NCBI GenBank assembly: GCA_001767455.1
Contig: MELC01000058.1
Span: 1 to 64,000, forward strand
Source: Acidobacteria bacterium RIFCSPLOWO2_12_FULL_66_21
GTDB taxonomy: Bacteria > Acidobacteriota > Vicinamibacteria > Vicinamibacterales > 2-12-FULL-66-21
Length of the DNA stretch: 64,000 nt
Direction: 5' to 3'
Shown: in pieces, positions 14,585 to 22,436 of the stretch
Layout of the letters: each line of letters begins with the position of its first letter
Position numbering within the stretch: the first letter of the stretch is position 1
The notes under the pieces: generated by a model
Database searches by the model: none
What the model was told of the DNA's origin: nothing
The model's input: only the letters and a program-made list of their open reading frames with translations
Made by a program: the position numbers and the translations under genes

Positions 14585-14750
14585 CTAGTGTCCCGTCCCC
14601 GTGGATCGTGGCATCAATCCCGGAGCGCGGCGCCTGGCTGGCAAGGCGCGACGACCGAGAATACTGGGTGTATTTGAGGAAGGAGCAACGCAGCCAGACG
14701 GAATGCCCCGCCCGGGAGTTATGTCACGAACCACGGGGACGGGACACTAG
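14585..14750. mobile_element. MITE/REP-like element with about 30-bp terminal inverted repeats
   Basis: A perfect 20-bp inverted repeat (begins CTAGTGTCCCGTCC at 14585; its complement ends at 14750) extends with a few mismatches to about 30 bp per arm. Each end carries CTAG at its edge. The 166-bp unit has no coding capacity. It sits in a region of gene fragments with no transposase beside it, so it would be a non-autonomous element, or a REP unit moved by a transposase elsewhere. Confidence 0.6.
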
Positions 14751-15273: not shown

Positions 15274-15936
15274 CTACTGCTCCCACGTGAGCATCATCTC
15301 GATCGTCCCCTTGTCCTTGTAGGCCTTTTCCGCCAGCTTCACCCAGTCTTCGGACACGGTCGCTTTGATGCCGCTCTCGAGGTCGAACCCCGTCGCGGCG
15401 ACGAAGCGCCCCTGCGTCAGAATGATCGCGAGGTGGTCCATGTCGTTGACGATCGCGCTGACGGGACTCTCCTGTTCCGCCTGGTTCTCGGGCTGTTCGA
15501 CGCTGAAGTCGAACGTCATCTTCAGCGTCATCCGGCGGCCATCCGCGGCCAGGTTCACCGCCGCCGCGCCAGGCACGTCGCCGAACAAGCGCGTCATCAC
15601 ACGCTCGATGGAGTGGAACTTCGCGTCCGTGACGACGAGGAACGGCGCTTCGTCACGAAGGACCCTGGTGCGGACGGGCCCCATCGGGTCCATGGCCTCG
15701 AGCGCGAGGGCGACGCCGTGGCGTCCCGCCGACGCCGCGGTGATGTAGGTCTGTTCCTCGGACGTCCGCTTCGCCGCGTCCCCTTCGTCGGAGTACACGT
15801 TGTTCTCGGCGACGATCCACGTCACCGCGCCGTCCGGCGACAGACACAAGGTGTGGGTCGTGTCCTTCTGCAGACAGCCCGCCGCGAGCATCGCCACCCC
15901 CGCCACGATCGAAAACCCCGCATGTTTGCTGGTCAT
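15274..15936 (-). CDS. Lipoprotein of unknown function
   Basis: 220 residues. Two ATGs lie in tandem; the second (15936) is preferred because GGAGG is five bases upstream of it and only two from the first. The N-terminus MTSKHAGFSIVAGVAMLAAG followed by Cys is a lipoprotein signal. The remainder is a soluble periplasmic domain with no family I recognise. It diverges from the ECF sigma gene with 63 bp between start codons, so it is a candidate target or partner of that sigma factor. Confidence 0.78.
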   Translation of the reverse strand: MTSKHAGFSIVAGVAMLAAGCLQKDTTHTLCLSPDGAVTWIVAENNVYSDEGDAAKRTSEEQTYITAASAGRHGVALALEAMDPMGPVRTRVLRDEAPFLVVTDAKFHSIERVMTRLFGDVPGAAAVNLAADGRRMTLKMTFDFSVEQPENQAEQESPVSAIVNDMDHLAIILTQGRFVAATGFDLESGIKATVSEDWVKLAEKAYKDKGTIEMMLTWEQ

Positions 15937-15960
15937 CATTGCCTCCTGCCCTATAGACGG

Positions 15961-15999
15961 CATCGGCGGAGGGAACCGAACGTGGTAACGTTTCGGCCC
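15961..15999 (+). promoter_or_regulatory. Upstream region of the sigma gene, duplicated at 19909-19947
   Basis: The 39 bases before the sigma ATG match, without gaps and at most positions, the 39 bases before the truncated second sigma copy. The best conserved block contains GGAACCG followed by ACGTGGTAA. GGAAC is a usual -35 element for ECF promoters, but the spacing to a -10 was not established. It may be an autoregulated ECF promoter that also acts on the divergent lipoprotein gene. Confidence 0.4.
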
Positions 16000-16581
16000 A
16001 TGGAGGCCCCGGCGACGGTCGATTTGCTGCGGCAGGCGAAAGCCGGATCGCCAGACGCGCTCAACCGTCTGTACGAGCGGTGCGCCGGCCGCCTGCTGTC
16101 GTACATCCGTCTTCGCATGGGACAGCCCCTGCGCGCGCGGCTCGAGTCGCGCGACATCCTCCAGGCGACCTTCCTCAAGTCGCTGACGCACCTCGATCAG
16201 CTCGAGGGCAGCGAGACCGGATCGCTGATGGCGTGGCTCGCGCGGATCGCGGAGAACGAGATCCGCGATCGCGCGGATTTCGAGGGGCGCCAGCGGCGGG
16301 ATGCCGCGCGCGAGGTGCCGATCGACGACGACGCGGCGTTTCGCGCGTCGGCGCATTCGGCGCTGTCGGAGGTGATCCTCGACGAGGAGGCGCTGCAGCT
16401 CGAACGCGCGCTCGAGGCGTTGTCGCCCGCGCACCGCGAGATCATCCTGCTGCGGAAATTCGAGGAACTGTCGTTCGCCGAGATCGGCGGCCGGCTCGGG
16501 AAGTCCGAAGATGCGTGCCGGATGCTGCTCGCGCGCGCGATGACGGCGCTCACGCTGAAGCTGTCGGAGACGGCCGGATGA
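16000..16581 (+). CDS. ECF-family RNA polymerase sigma factor
   Basis: 193 residues from ATG 16000. Region 2 is at about residues 8-80 (LYERCAGRLLSYIRLRM, RDILQATFLKSLTHLDQL) and region 4 at about 130-185 (LSPAHREIILLRKFEELSFA, EIGGRLGKSEDACRMLLARA). It belongs with the ECF sigma factors that are usually paired with a Ser/Thr kinase in Planctomycetes and Acidobacteria. Its stop overlaps the start of a kinase remnant (ATGA), so it was once followed by a translationally coupled kinase. The kinase is now truncated, and the intact homologous kinase sits 3.4 kb away behind a collapsed second sigma copy. No anti-sigma gene is adjacent. Confidence 0.92.
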   Translation: MEAPATVDLLRQAKAGSPDALNRLYERCAGRLLSYIRLRMGQPLRARLESRDILQATFLKSLTHLDQLEGSETGSLMAWLARIAENEIRDRADFEGRQRRDAAREVPIDDDAAFRASAHSALSEVILDEEALQLERALEALSPAHREIILLRKFEELSFAEIGGRLGKSEDACRMLLARAMTALTLKLSETAG

Positions 16582-16658
16582 GCAGCACGACCGCGGAACT
16601 CGAGGCACGCGTCGCGCGGTTCATCGAGCACCACGTGCTCCATGGCCCGCGGTGCTGA
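16578..16658 (+). pseudogene. Truncated N-terminus of a Ser/Thr kinase (26 codons)
   Basis: The ATG overlaps the sigma stop and opens MSSTTAELEARVARFIEHHV, almost identical to the N-terminus of the intact kinase at 20009. DNA similarity between the copies ends near 16653, and a stop follows at once (HGPRC). It is the stump of the first kinase copy of a duplicated sigma/kinase module. Confidence 0.8.
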
Positions 16659-16782
16659 ATCGCAAGTGCCTTCACGGCGGCAGACAGGTCCCCGAAGCGC
16701 GTGGCCGGATGGCCGCGCGCCTGGCAGGGCGCCGCGCAGCCTCAGAACATGCGCTCGATCTCTGGGAGGAGGCGCGGGAGCG

Positions 16783-17070
16783 TCAGCAGCCGGGCAGGCT
16801 GCCGCACACCCCATTTGTTGCAACCCCGGCGTGGCAATTCCGGATGCACAGCGCGTATTCCTTGCCGACCCCGCCGTCGCGCGGGTGGCTGAAATTAGTG
16901 CCGCAGCAGTCAAGGCAGATCTGGACGCACGCGGACTTAGTGTTGTCGGCGGCCAGGCCCAGCGACGCGAGCACGACAGCGATCAGGCCGCCGCCAATCA
17001 GGCGGAAGGCCTGCCGGCGCGGCAGGTCCGCGGCCGCGTCCTTGGCGAGCTTGTCGAATCGATCTCCCAT
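16783..17070 (-). CDS. Secreted Cys-rich small protein with Tat-type signal
   Basis: 95 residues from ATG 17070, preceded by AAGGAG. A polar N-terminal extension (MGDRFDKLAKDAAADLP) leads to a twin-arginine motif (RRQAFRL) and a hydrophobic segment (IGGGLIAVVLASLGLAA, about residues 25-41), as in Tat substrates. The mature part has eight cysteines in about 50 residues (ACVQICLDCC, ALCIRNCHAG, VCGSLPGC), enough for four disulfides or a metal site. The gene starts 20 bp after a MauD-like thioredoxin on the same strand, so the two are probably one operon with the thioredoxin acting on the cysteines. No family is assigned; methylamine dehydrogenase light chain, matured by MauD, has a similar architecture but no sequence match is claimed. 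Confidence 0.75.
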   Translation of the reverse strand: MGDRFDKLAKDAAADLPRRQAFRLIGGGLIAVVLASLGLAADNTKSACVQICLDCCGTNFSHPRDGGVGKEYALCIRNCHAGVATNGVCGSLPGC

Positions 17071-17090
17071 TGGACTGTTCTCCTTTGCGG

Positions 17091-17732
17091 TTAGTGTCCG
17101 GAAGCACGCGCCGCGGTTCCCGTCGATGCCAGCGCGAGAATCGCGTCCATACCCAGGGCAACGTTGGCAGCAATGCGGCCCTGTTCGTCGATCAGATACG
17201 CAATGGGCGTCGCGAACTTGGCGTACGCCCGGGAGAGCTGCCACTGCTCCTGGAGGGCCACCGGAAACGTCAGCCGATGCTCCGCAACCTTGCGCCGGTT
17301 GCGATCGGGGTCCCCCCGGCTCACCATCACGACGCTCACGTCCAGCGTCTCTCTCGAGAGCCGCTCGAGTTTCGGCGCGAGCAGGTTGCACGGCCCGCAG
17401 TCCGGATCGGAAAACACGAGCAGCACGCGGCGCCCCACGTAATCGCTGAGCGAAAGTTCGCCGCCATCGAGCCGAGGCAACGTGAACGCCGGAGCCGCCG
17501 TGCCTGGCGTCAAGCCGTTCCGGTTGATGCGGCTGCCGGCCAGCGAACGATCCCCGAACGGACGCGGGCCCGGGTGTTCACCGCCGGCGGCGAGTTTTTC
17601 GATCTCGGCTTCGAGCGCTTCAACCCGCAGAAGCGTCCGGCCGTTCTGGCGGAGGAGCTGATAGACGAGCCACGCGACGAGCGCCAGAGCCGCCCACGCG
17701 AGCACAAGGAAAATGCCGACGAGGCCCGCCAC
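17091..17732 (-). CDS. Membrane-anchored thioredoxin-like protein (MauD/redoxin type)
   Basis: 213 residues from GTG 17732, the only usual start in the frame. An N-terminal TM helix (LVGIFLVLAWAALALVAWLV) and a short coiled coil (LLRVEALEAEIEKLAAG) precede an AhpC/TSA-type redoxin domain (about residues 72-200). The active site is SDPDCGPCNLLAPKL, a CxxC with the usual position after strand 1, followed by the cis-Pro region TPIAYLIDEQG. The active domain should lie in the periplasm, as in MauD. It is likely a dithiol/disulfide enzyme for the Cys-rich protein encoded next. No MauE-like electron donor is visible nearby. Confidence 0.85.
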   Translation of the reverse strand: MAGLVGIFLVLAWAALALVAWLVYQLLRQNGRTLLRVEALEAEIEKLAAGGEHPGPRPFGDRSLAGSRINRNGLTPGTAAPAFTLPRLDGGELSLSDYVGRRVLLVFSDPDCGPCNLLAPKLERLSRETLDVSVVMVSRGDPDRNRRKVAEHRLTFPVALQEQWQLSRAYAKFATPIAYLIDEQGRIAANVALGMDAILALASTGTAARASGH

Positions 17733-17821
17733 GAAAGTGGTGCTCGAGGCGATCAGGCCCAGACGGCTTTGGTCATCACGTGTCGGGATCCAGGAAGATG
17801 CATGGTGACTCGCCTAGCCTA

Positions 17822-19507
17822 CTACAAAATGATGCTGCCCCAGACGATGTTCGTGCCCCACACGATGTTGTCGGAGTCGTACTCCGTGCCCCACACGATG
17901 TTGTCGGAGTCGGAGTCCGTGCCCCACACGATGTTCTGCGTCCACGCCAACTGGTTCGTGTAGATGGCGGTGGTGCCCCACACGATGTTGGTGCCCCACA
18001 CGATGTTCTGCGCCCACAACAGCGTCTCGCCGGCAATCGTGGTCGACTGTGAGACGCCCGTCGCGAGCCACCACGACCCGACGGGCGTGGCCGTGTCGAT
18101 CGCCCGCCCGAGGTCGATGGCGCCCGCCGCGTTGAGCGCGCCAGCGCCCTGCGTCAGCGTGTCGTACGCCGCGCCGGTCGCGTCGTGCATGCGGAACGCG
18201 GTGAACTGCATGATGGCCTTGACGGCGTTCGGCGTCAGCGACGGACGCGCCGGATAGCCATTGGCGGTGCGGCTCGCTTCGAGCAGCAGCGCGACTGCGC
18301 CGCTCGCCACGCCCGCCGCCATGCTGGTCCCGCTGAGGCGAAGGTGCCCGGAGTCGACCCGGACCGCCGGGTACGTCTTGTAGAGATAACTCCTCAAGCT
18401 GCCGTCGGAAACCAGGCGGTGGCCGTCGGCCAGGATGTCCGGCTTCGCCATGCCGTCGTACCACGTCGGCCCGCGCGAGCTGTAGGGCGCCGGAATGTCG
18501 TCGCCGCGCCCGACCGTACCCTGATCCTCGAACGCGCCGGCCGTGAGCGACGACGGCGCGTTGCCGGGCGACGTGACGCCCGCATATCCCGGCTGCCCCG
18601 TCGCCGGATTGACGCCGAAGTTGCCGGCCGAGGTGACGACCACGATCCCGGCGCGGGCGGCCGCCTCGACGGCCTGCACGAGCGGGTCGGTCGCTGCCGA
18701 TTCGTAAATCGGATGGCCGAGCGAGAGGTTGATGACGTCGATGCCGAGCGCTTGCCTGTTCACGGTCGCGAACGTGAGCGCCTTGATGACGTCGCTCGTC
18801 TTCCCGGACCCCTTGCCGTCGAGCACCTTCATCACGATCAGGCGCGCCGCGGGCGCCACACCCTGGTACTGGCTGGCGACGGCGCCGCTGCTGCCGATCA
18901 GGCCCGCGACGTGCGTCCCGTGGCCGTAGTCGTCATACGCCCCGGCGTAGCTGCCGCCCGCGTTGACGAAGTCGTAGAAGGCCGGAATCCGGCCATCGAA
19001 GTCCTTCGACGGCGTGATGCCCGAATCGAGAATCGCGATGCCGATGCCTTTGCCGGTCGGACTCGCGGAGGTCAGGCCCAACGTCTCGCGCAGCACGTCG
19101 GTGCCGGAGCCGCCCGAGCTGGGGGCGGCGAAGGCCGAGACCGGCGAATTGATCGACACCGAGGCGATGGCCTCGTCGGCCGCCATCGCGTCGAACTGGG
19201 CCGGCGACACGCGGATCGTCAGCGCATCGAGCGTGGCGTGCTCCGCTTCGACGACGCCGCCGCTGGCCTTCAACCGATCACGGACCGCGGCGCGCTGGCC
19301 GGGGCTGGTCCGGACGATGACGCTGAGCGGGGTCGTCGAATCCGTGAGCCGCACCGCGTTGAGGGCACGATCGAGTTTTTTGAGAGCGCCCTGGCCCGCC
19401 GCCCACGAGGTGCCTGGAAGCCAGAGAGTGGCGAGAACCAGAACGAGTGCGGCCACGCGAACCGGAACTCGACTGGAAGAGCTGGGGAGTGTCTTACATG
19501 AAAGCAT
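17822..19507 (-). CDS. Secreted S8 subtilisin-like protease with C-terminal NIVWG repeats
   Basis: 561 residues from ATG 19507; a TTG six codons upstream is the alternative. After a signal peptide (to about residue 37) comes an inhibitor-like prodomain and an S8 catalytic domain with Asp161 (AILDSGI), His196 (GHGTHVAG) and Ser395 (GTSMAAG), so the triad is intact. The last 70 residues hold six NIVWG units (for example QNIVWGTNIVWGT and SDSDNIVWGTEYDSDNIVWG) encoded by near-identical DNA. Such tails are typical of acidobacterial subtilases; a sorting or anchoring role is only a guess. The protease, thioredoxin and Cys-rich protein lie in the same direction and may be coordinated. Confidence 0.92.
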   Translation of the reverse strand: MLSCKTLPSSSSRVPVRVAALVLVLATLWLPGTSWAAGQGALKKLDRALNAVRLTDSTTPLSVIVRTSPGQRAAVRDRLKASGGVVEAEHATLDALTIRVSPAQFDAMAADEAIASVSINSPVSAFAAPSSGGSGTDVLRETLGLTSASPTGKGIGIAILDSGITPSKDFDGRIPAFYDFVNAGGSYAGAYDDYGHGTHVAGLIGSSGAVASQYQGVAPAARLIVMKVLDGKGSGKTSDVIKALTFATVNRQALGIDVINLSLGHPIYESAATDPLVQAVEAAARAGIVVVTSAGNFGVNPATGQPGYAGVTSPGNAPSSLTAGAFEDQGTVGRGDDIPAPYSSRGPTWYDGMAKPDILADGHRLVSDGSLRSYLYKTYPAVRVDSGHLRLSGTSMAAGVASGAVALLLEASRTANGYPARPSLTPNAVKAIMQFTAFRMHDATGAAYDTLTQGAGALNAAGAIDLGRAIDTATPVGSWWLATGVSQSTTIAGETLLWAQNIVWGTNIVWGTTAIYTNQLAWTQNIVWGTDSDSDNIVWGTEYDSDNIVWGTNIVWGSIIL

Positions 19508-19740
19508 TTGTGAAAGGCTCAGCAATTCGCGGGCCGACTTTGCCGAGCTTGAGACAATTCGCGTTAAGTTCTTTATTAACTATACTTACGGGCTTGACTG
19601 AGACTGGACCGCTCGCACAGTTCTTGGATCGTCTGTGCCAGACTTAGACACGTCGATGGGCCCGAACGGCCTTCTGTGGGCGGTTCGGCCTGACAGGTCA
19701 ATGACTTGACCGATGGTGTTCCAGAATAGACCACGAAATA
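19508..19740 (-). promoter_or_regulatory. Structured leader upstream of the subtilase gene
   Basis: About 230 bp without a gene, with three small inverted repeats: GCACAG/CTGTGC (19615-19638), CCGAAC/GTTCGG (19662-19688) and the palindrome GGTCAA-TGAC-TTGACC (19696-19711). An AT-rich stretch at 19565-19590 includes a possible -10 TATAGT on the minus strand. The palindrome could be an operator and the hairpins a 5' leader. No known riboswitch class was recognised. Confidence 0.35.
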
Positions 19741-19947
19741 CCGAAATGGAGCACTCGCAGCATGGAGCGGCGGGACACATGGAACCTCCTCGTACCCCCG
19801 GCGGATTGTCCTTTCGCCTGGTTCATCCAGTCCTCGGAGATCGAGCGCGAGCGCGACGCGCCGGCGCCCCCCGGCGTGGTGGTGGTGTCCTCCTGCTCGC
19901 ATAGGCGTCATCGGCGTGCGGAACCGTACGTGGTAAGGTTGCCGCCC

Positions 19948-20011
19948 ATGGAGGCCGCCGCGCACGCGCGATGACGGCGCTGACGCTGACGCTGTCGGAG
20001 ATCGCGCGATG
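19948..20011 (+). pseudogene. Collapsed second ECF sigma gene
   Basis: ATG 19948 opens MEAAAHAR and stops. From 19971 the DNA matches the last codons of the intact sigma gene (end of region 4) but out of frame. Compared with the intact copy, 517 bp between start and tail are missing. The upstream 39 bp also match. The remnant ends, as in the intact copy, by overlapping the kinase ATG. Confidence 0.75.
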
Positions 20012-22342
20012 AGCAGCACGACCTCGGAACTGGAGGCACGCTTCGCGCGGTTCGTCGAGCATCACGTGCTCCACGGCACGCGGCTGCCGATGGAACAGCT
20101 CTGCGGCGACCGCCCGGACCTCGCGCATCCCCTCGAGGCGCTCATCCGCCGGTACCTGTCGATCACGGCGAGGCTGGACAGCGACAGTGTGGGCCCGGCC
20201 TTTCAGGCCGGGCGCCACGACAGCGACGCGACATCCACGGCTGGGCGTTTACCTTACGTCGAGGGCTTCCAGACCATCGAGCGGATTGGCACCGGCGGCA
20301 TGGGCGAGGTCTACAAGCTCAAGGACCTGCGCCTCGATCGCACCGTCGCGGCCAAGGTCATTCGACGGGATGCCCCGGCCATCCGCGCGGACATGGCCTC
20401 GTTCCTGAGCGAGGCGCGCGCGCTCGCGCTCTTCTCGGACCGACGCATCGTCCAGGTGTTCGAGTTCCGGCCGGACGCCGACCCTCCGGTCATCATCATG
20501 GAGTTTGTGGACGGCTTCGAGCTGGGGAAGCTTGCGCCGTCGCTCGAGTTCGCGCAGCGCGCGCGCATCATGGTCGAGATCTGCGAGGCGGCGCACCACG
20601 CCCACACGCTCGGCCTCCAGCATCGCGACCTGAAGCCGTCGAATATCATGCTCGACGCGAGGCTCTCGCCGCGCATCCTGGATTTCGGCCTGAGCTCCGG
20701 CGATCCGGCGCGAGGCCACCTCAAAGGAACACTTCCCTACGTCGCCCCCGAGCAGCTGGATCCGTCGCGGCCGATCGACGCACGGACCGACGTGTATGCC
20801 CTTGGCGTGATCTTCTACGAGATGCTGGCCGGCCGGCCGCCCTATGCCGGTGAGGACGGTGCGGTGATCGACAGCATTCGCCGCGGGCGGCCGCGGCTGC
20901 CCGTGGAGGTGGACGCGAGGGTGCCGGAGCCGCTCCAGGCGATCGCGCTGACCGCCATGGAAGCGGATCCGGCCGCGCGGTTCCAGTCCGCGTCCGACAT
21001 GGCGGCGGACCTGCGCCGGCACCTGGACGGCCGCCCGATCCTCGCGCGGCCTTCTCTGTACGCCTCCACCCTCGGATCGCGCGTCGAGCCGCATCTCGAT
21101 CACATCGGCGAATGGCTGCGGCTGCGGCTCATCTACCCGCACGAGGCGGATCGGCTGCGCGGCGCGTATCGCGCGCTCGAGGCGCGGGAGGACGACTGGA
21201 TCGTCGAGAGCCGCGTGCTCTCGTACACGCAGATCGCGCTCTACCTCGGGGCGTTCCTGCTGTTCTGCGGGAGCATCTTCTATTTCTTCGCCGCCCGCGT
21301 GTACGACAAGGTCCAGGGAGTCGCGGCGCCGGCCGCCGTGCTCGGGCTGCCGTTCATCGGACTCAATGCGGCGGCGCACCTCCTCTACCGCAAGGACCAC
21401 AAGGCGGTCGCGGTCGCGTTCTATCTCGCGGCCGTCGTGCTGCTGCCGCTGTTCCTGCTCATCGTGTTCTACGAGACGAACCTGCTCGTCGCCGCGCCCG
21501 ATGCGGCCGGCCAGCTCTTCTCCCGCGACATCGTGTCGAACCGGCAGTTGCAGGTCACCACGTTCGTGGCGTGCGGCTGGTGCGCGTGGCTCGCGCTCCG
21601 GACGAGGACCATCGCGCTCAGCACCGTGTTCACGCTGCTCGCGCTGACGGCCGCGCTCGCCATAATCTCGGATTTCGGCCTGCGGACGTGGTGGGACGAC
21701 AGCCAGTGGGACAAGCTGTCGCTGCACCTCCTCCCCCTGGTCTTCGGCTACGCGGCGATCGGGATCGCCGCCGAACGGTCCAACCGGCCGTGGCTGAGCC
21801 GTCCCGCCTTCCTCGGCGGCGCCGTGCTGCTCGTCGTCCTGCTCGAGCTGCTCGCGCTCAACGGGAAGATGTTCGAGTATCTCGGAGGATTGTCACTGAC
21901 CTCACTTCAGCCGGCGCAGGTCAGCGACCCGCAGTTGCTGAACACCATCGCGGCCATGACGGTCAACGGGGTGGTGTTCTATCTGGTCGCCGTCGTGCTC
22001 CATCAGCGGGCATCAGAGGTGGTGAGACCGTCGGCGCAACTGCTCTTCACGATCGCGCCCTTCGCGATGCTTCACCCGATCGGGTACCTGGTGCGGACGG
22101 CGGAGTACGCGCGGGGTTTCGACTGGGCGTACCTCGCCGTTGCGGGTGCGATCGTGATGCTCAGCGAGAAGCGGCAACGCCGGAGCTTCTACTATGCGGG
22201 GCTGCTGAACCTCGGGCTCGCCCTGTATTTCATCGCCGAACGCCGCCACTGGTTCGATCGGCCTGCCTGGGCGATCGCGATTGTGGCCGCGGGCCTCGTA
22301 ACACTGGGCGTCGGCTTCGCCCTGGACCGCCGCCGCGGATAA
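20009..22342 (+). CDS. Ser/Thr protein kinase with C-terminal multi-pass membrane domain
   Basis: 777 residues. After an N-terminal helical region (1-80) comes a PknB-type kinase domain (about 87-345) with glycine loop GTGGMG (94-99), Lys116 (AAKVI), catalytic HRDLKPSN (205-212), DFG (225-227) and the APE-like sequence APEQLD. From about residue 395 there are some ten TM helices (IALYLGAFLLFCGSIFYFFA, FYLAAVVLLPLFLLIVFY, LTLGVGFAL at the end), with a DUF2157-like look. It should signal in the cytoplasm from the membrane. Its sigma partner is the collapsed remnant just upstream; the nearest intact sigma is at 16000, so the working pair may now be encoded apart. Confidence 0.92.
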   Translation: MSSTTSELEARFARFVEHHVLHGTRLPMEQLCGDRPDLAHPLEALIRRYLSITARLDSDSVGPAFQAGRHDSDATSTAGRLPYVEGFQTIERIGTGGMGEVYKLKDLRLDRTVAAKVIRRDAPAIRADMASFLSEARALALFSDRRIVQVFEFRPDADPPVIIMEFVDGFELGKLAPSLEFAQRARIMVEICEAAHHAHTLGLQHRDLKPSNIMLDARLSPRILDFGLSSGDPARGHLKGTLPYVAPEQLDPSRPIDARTDVYALGVIFYEMLAGRPPYAGEDGAVIDSIRRGRPRLPVEVDARVPEPLQAIALTAMEADPAARFQSASDMAADLRRHLDGRPILARPSLYASTLGSRVEPHLDHIGEWLRLRLIYPHEADRLRGAYRALEAREDDWIVESRVLSYTQIALYLGAFLLFCGSIFYFFAARVYDKVQGVAAPAAVLGLPFIGLNAAAHLLYRKDHKAVAVAFYLAAVVLLPLFLLIVFYETNLLVAAPDAAGQLFSRDIVSNRQLQVTTFVACGWCAWLALRTRTIALSTVFTLLALTAALAIISDFGLRTWWDDSQWDKLSLHLLPLVFGYAAIGIAAERSNRPWLSRPAFLGGAVLLVVLLELLALNGKMFEYLGGLSLTSLQPAQVSDPQLLNTIAAMTVNGVVFYLVAVVLHQRASEVVRPSAQLLFTIAPFAMLHPIGYLVRTAEYARGFDWAYLAVAGAIVMLSEKRQRRSFYYAGLLNLGLALYFIAERRHWFDRPAWAIAIVAAGLVTLGVGFALDRRRG

Positions 22343-22371: not shown

Positions 22372-22436
22372 ACCACGGAAGAACACAGAAGAACACTGTT
22401 TGGGAATTCACCACGGAAGAACACAGAAGAACACTT
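22372..22436. repeat. Direct repeat of 26 bp between kinase and TerB genes
   Basis: Two copies (22372-22397 and 22410-22435) of a unit that begins ACCACGGAAGAACACAGA. Degenerate copies of the same motif occur at about 40190-40245. It is a simple A-rich intergenic repeat with no coding role. Confidence 0.75.

Follow-up and report, generated by a model that had tools for sequence, protein, structure and literature searches.

The locus and its two partial copies

The window (the whole 64-kb stretch of DNA that was analysed) is part of a 94.5-kb contig of a soil-type bacterium, whose draft genome comprises 6.48 Mb in 91 contigs with an estimated contamination of 2.6%. It holds two partial copies of a module consisting of an ECF sigma factor gene and a membrane Ser/Thr kinase gene, along with a lipoprotein gene and three further genes between the copies:

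15274-15939, minus strand: lipoprotein gene (221 aa), conserved module partner and predicted sigma target
15956-15982, minus strand: ECF-type promoter CGTTCGGTT-N12-GCCGTC, directed toward the lipoprotein gene (from the sequence and relatives)
15986-15991, plus strand: TANNNT -10-like box (TAACGT), whose first T lies 14 nt upstream of the sigma ATG (near-leaderless start)
16000-16581, plus strand: copy 1 ECF sigma, 193 aa, intact (ORF and domain search)
16530-16652, plus strand: sigma-tail/kinase-head segment of copy 1, 89% identical to 19961-20083
16578-16658, plus strand: copy 1 kinase stub of 26 codons, ATGA overlap with the sigma stop
16783-17070, minus strand: small Cys-rich protein, 95 aa (homologues adjoin the thioredoxin gene in order-mates)
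17091-17732, minus strand: thioredoxin-like (AhpC-TSA/MauD-like) protein (domain search and relatives)
17822-19525, minus strand: subtilase (S8) with C-terminal NIVWGT repeats, start codon uncertain (Peptidase_S8, 1.2e-43)
19824-19885, minus strand: probable lipoprotein-gene scrap bordering copy 2 on its left, a weak match (local alignment to 15681-15742)
19904-19930, minus strand: decayed ECF-type promoter of copy 2, scoring 12/15 and not followed by a lipoprotein gene
19934-19939, plus strand: copy 2 TANNNT box (TAAGGT), located 14 nt upstream of the residual sigma ATG
19948-19974, plus strand: residual sigma start, mini-ORF MEAAAHAR and stop
19961-20083, plus strand: sigma-tail/kinase-head segment of copy 2, 89% identical to 16530-16652
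19971-20012, plus strand: residual sigma tail, mini-ORF MTALTLTLSEIAR and stop, ATGA overlap at each end
20009-22342, plus strand: copy 2 membrane Ser/Thr kinase, 777 aa, full, DUF2157-like multi-TM C-terminus

Copy 1 had been described as an intact ECF sigma followed by 26 codons of its kinase, and open reading frames and domains bear this out. The sigma protein carries Sigma70_r2 and Sigma70_r4 above the cut-offs and no other domain, as expected of an ECF (group 4 sigma-70) factor; among family models it matches the planctomycete sigma subfamily TIGR02984 best, with a score below the cut-off of that model. The stub translates as MSSTTAELEARVARFIEHHVLHGPRC before its stop codon, and an alignment against shuffles detected no decayed kinase sequence past it (P = 0.16). 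The loss of 517 bp from the sigma gene of copy 2 next to a full kinase was likewise found: from sigma start to junction, copy 1 spans 578 bp, against 61 bp for copy 2. In the domain search the kinase matched Pkinase (3.3e-39), and all catalytic motifs of a Hanks-type kinase are present (glycine loop, AAKVI, HRDLKPSN, DFG and APEQ).

According to genome-wide searches, the genome contains a single full sigma of the module type, with a runner-up match only 34% identical, and a single full kinase. The two halves thus add up to the gene set of one module, as originally predicted, and two independent paralogous modules were ruled out because the genome has no other close copy. With open frames and intact domains, sigma and kinase are presumptively a functional pair, judged by sequence only. 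They lie about 3.4 kb apart, separated by the predicted trio of Cys-rich, thioredoxin-like and subtilase genes, all on the minus strand. Two repeats of another kind were also seen in the window: an inverted repeat of 39 nt (14585-14623 / 14712-14750, 90% complementary, 88 nt apart) that resembles the ends of small mobile elements, and, directly after the kinase gene, two identical 26-nt repeats ACCACGGAAGAACACAGAAGAACACT (22372-22397 / 22410-22435).

The deletion in copy 2 is out of frame, so that translation from the ATG at 19948 gives MEAAAHAR and then meets a TGA. This TGA shares bases with an ATG that once encoded a Met of the sigma, and the second mini-ORF, MTALTLTLSEIAR, ends at a TGA that overlaps the kinase ATG, which is preceded by GGAG. 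Given the TANNNT box and the GGAG, expression of the copy 2 kinase is plausible; together with the chain of ATG-TGA/ATG-TGA/ATG they would allow the kinase still to be made from its own start. The two ATGA-linked mini-ORFs could still couple ribosomes into the kinase gene, and the coupling chain presumably works. An out-of-frame TGA (ATGAC) is also found in the sigma tail of copy 1, and therefore every deletion entering that frame would run into this stop. The relay of mini-ORFs may thus be either selected or lucky.

The lipoprotein gene and the ECF-type promoter

The promoters and junctions of the two copies had been considered alike. This was correct for the junctions, which are ATGA in both copies, and for the TANNNT box, but the ECF-type element runs in the reverse direction and has decayed at copy 2. 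Judged from the sequence, the element that both copies have in common in the direction of the genes is the TANNNT box and not the ECF-type promoter. In most relatives, too, a TANNNT box is found 14-17 nt upstream of the sigma start, and the pattern has been reported for leaderless genes and found in Acidobacteria by survey (PMC3160421). Sigma-70 consensus promoters and Rfam families were also searched for, with none found of either.

Homologues of the lipoprotein gene adjoin sigma or kinase in eight relative loci and occur in three arrangements: six relatives have it divergent, L021 has it downstream of the kinase and L023 upstream of the sigma. Across the loci the ECF-type site reads CGTTCGGTT-N11/12-GCCGTC and lies upstream of the linked lipoprotein gene in 10/10 loci, where it scores 13-15 out of 15; shuffles equalled the observed score in at most 1/200 cases. 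Because the divergent loci supplied the motif, its fair tests are L021, L023 and L027. The site in L027 precedes an unlike lipoprotein-type gene ahead of the sigma. There (genome G018, L027 7310-8000) a perfect site stands before a lipoprotein-type gene without detectable similarity to the usual one, i.e. the same promoter with a different output gene.

The site at 15956-15982 is the sole perfect one in the 6.48-Mb genome, and in the carriers G085, G086, G089 and G018 the sole site within one mismatch sits at the module. A further site with one mismatch in the window's genome, on contig C90, was rejected as it lies inside the coding sequence of an unrelated kinase and not in a promoter region. 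Sites with two mismatches number 54 in the window's genome, compared to 18 for a reversed control pattern. From this distribution we infer that this sigma uses CGTTCGGTT-N11/12-GCCGTC as its target promoter; by promoter search its target set may be a single gene. We also considered the upstream block as an autoregulatory ECF promoter of the sigma gene and rejected it, since its boxes keep their mutual spacing (11-12) and not their spacing to sigma, and go with the lipoprotein gene where that gene is moved.

The promoter is intact only where the lipoprotein gene survives. At copy 2 the CGTC of the -10-type box is gone, and the left edge of copy 2 is probably a scrap of the lipoprotein gene, a weak match whose alignment score was reached by at most 1/500 shuffles. 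The original prediction raised the question whether the sigma at 16000 recognises the promoter at 19909. This is unlikely because the ECF-type element at 19904-19930 is reversed and decayed.

Relatives, polarity of decay and the origin of the split

In our class survey of 193 genomes, which counts in the window's genome, a module-type kinase occurs in six genomes and a module-type sigma in seven, again including the window's own. The 11 family-mates of this genome lack both genes. The 12 family genomes include no second species of the same genus, and the intermediate steps are therefore unseen. A separate sequence collection yielded eight module loci, and most of the titled relatives are Acidobacteria MAGs. 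Sigma and kinase are adjacent in nine relative loci, which are all the relatives with both genes visible, and in most relatives the sigma stop overlaps the kinase start (ATGA or GTGA). A comparison with relatives had been proposed to distinguish an ancestral single from a double module. The adjacency in nine loci points to a single coupled operon as the ancestral state and to the arrangement in the window as derived. In two draft relatives the sigma frame is broken or shifted near its end: L024 stops early and L027 continues in the kinase frame, due to either sequencing errors or real decay. The L024 contig, which carries the same lipoprotein-sigma-kinase module, is labelled Gemmatimonadetes, pointing to a transfer between phyla or to a mis-binned contig.

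A common origin of the two copies, which would be contradicted by unrelated copies, is well supported. Apart from the sigma-tail/kinase-head segments, a direct repeat pair links 15953-16014 to 19901-19962 with 82% identity, and the similarity of the repeats is far above chance. The junction DNA of the copies is identical at 106/120 positions (88%), compared to 84/108 for the best relative against either copy (at most about 78% over at least 90 aligned bases). The copies are closer to each other than to any relative, and thus the duplication belongs to this lineage. Stub and full kinase differ before the break at four amino acids (A/S at 6, V/F at 12, I/V at 16 and P/T at 24); at these positions the relatives match the full kinase or, failing that, differ from the stub. 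This indicates that the stub is decaying and the kinase is not, and at all four positions it is the stub that seems to hold the derived residue. Polarised changes are few, since only about 185 bp show clear homology.

The three genes between the copies have a history of their own. Subtilase, thioredoxin-like and Cys-rich genes occur together in four order-mates (G064, G122, G125 and G142), the latter two genes also in G132, and the subtilase is 69% identical to its homologue in G064. The module was not found in these five genomes and the cassette was not found in the other module carriers; among the 193 class genomes the two co-occur only in the window's genome. The cassette is present in other families and was not found in the 11 family-mates. 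In the window (16783-19525) as in L065, L066, L067 and L068, the cassette combines an S8 protease bearing C-terminal NIVWGT-type repeats, a MauD-like thioredoxin and a small Cys-rich protein whose N-terminus is RRxAF (Tat-like), and it might encode a secreted, disulfide-rich product and its maturation enzymes.

Overall, we consider it quite probable that an ancestral lipoprotein/sigma-kinase module was partly duplicated, that its copies underwent reciprocal loss, and that the remaining genes form a predicted kinase-sigma-lipoprotein circuit. The duplication, the orthology, the losses and the conservation of the promoter are read directly from the sequences. The ancestor would have had one module with a lipoprotein gene, its ECF-type promoter and an operon in which sigma and kinase overlap by ATGA. 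A segment starting within the lipoprotein gene and extending to kinase codon 26 would have been duplicated in this lineage, and a pre-existing subtilase-thioredoxin-Cys cassette would have ended up between the copies. Copy 1 would then have lost the kinase past the stub and copy 2 the lipoprotein gene, a good ECF-type promoter and the greater part of the sigma, such that sigma and kinase each persisted as a single intact copy. In the predicted circuit, the membrane kinase would sense a signal and phosphorylate or otherwise license the now unlinked sigma, which in turn would transcribe the lipoprotein gene via its ECF-type promoter. Their linkage suggests that the kinase acts on the sigma, an interaction that may or may not have outlasted the unlinking.

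How the copies became separated allows a sub-variant to which we give somewhat less than an even chance, namely single-crossover integration, into an intact operon, of a DNA that carried the cassette and a diverged homologue of part of the module, from the middle of the lipoprotein gene to kinase codon 26. This would have created the flanking repeats at once, with the sigma deletion following later. It accounts for copy 1 being whole at the left and cut at the right and copy 2 showing the opposite pattern, for the position of the cassette between the two and for a divergence of 11-18% between the copies, and it agrees with a cassette known from other families but not from the 11 family-mates. 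However, no integrase, plasmid or phage gene was seen between the copies, and the replacement changes all fall in the stub, as in decay rather than in two constrained lineages. Tandem duplication followed by insertion yields the same map, which fits both routes.

A rewired circuit, as opposed to a mere leftover, is a more doubtful proposal: the deletion might have freed the kinase from the sigma operon, with the TANNNT start and the mini-ORF relay feeding the kinase, sensor and sigma on separate transcripts, and the one-target lipoprotein output kept. We regard it as improbable that the contig is a chimera joining two strains or two loci while the real operon is intact. The draft state and estimated contamination of the assembly and breakpoints within repeated sequence would be compatible with it, but a second close sigma or kinase copy is absent elsewhere in the assembly, the changes in stub and promoter are polarised as decay, a divergence of 11% is high for k-mer collapse, and GC is even across the joins except for a dip at 19500-19999. 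Finally, the trio had been proposed as cargo or regulon of the pair, and its conservation without the module in four order-mates argues for cargo; that it is a regulon recruited beside the pair is very improbable despite its location between the copies and the decayed copy 2 site facing the subtilase, as no intact ECF-type site lies near the trio.

Relation to known systems

The partial duplication with reciprocal loss shows an operon caught breaking into two loci with both genes intact, a step that is usually inferred from end states. The comparison with relatives further predicts that a very small ECF circuit exists in Acidobacteriota, in which a kinase-linked sigma serves, by promoter search, a single lipoprotein gene through a defined promoter; target and promoter thereby become directly testable.

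The ECF43 sigmas are associated with Ser/Thr kinases, as in EcfP/PknT of Vibrio parahaemolyticus and EcfK/PknS of Xanthomonas citri, and the acidic DAED/DxxD of their region 2.2 is typically replaced by uncharged residues, for which a phospho-Thr substitutes (PMC8999054, PMC13147305). Similarly, the sigma described here is encoded with a membrane Hanks-type kinase, adjacent in relatives, and no anti-sigma was recognised among the conserved neighbours of the module. In contrast to ECF43, its 2.2 motif ESRDILQA/S keeps both acidic positions, in the window and in all relative loci, and we therefore do not file the module under ECF43. Its kinase also differs by the DUF2157-like multi-TM tail, and the pair is split in the window. 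Kinase linkage along with a DAED-like acidic motif is shared with ECF59, ECF61, ECF62 and ECF217 (PMC8999054), from which the module differs in its Acidobacteriota-like host.

The fate of the copies resembles the duplication-degeneration-complementation model (PMC2213666) in that the duplicates lost complementary parts and jointly keep the ancestral set. Unlike in that model, whole operon genes and not subfunctions within one gene were lost, for which reciprocal loss of redundant parts is the better description. In conclusion, the split locus is an evolutionary fossil of ordinary duplication with reciprocal loss and not a new kind of system: the module is of a known kind, a kinase-linked ECF sigma, in an unusual split state.
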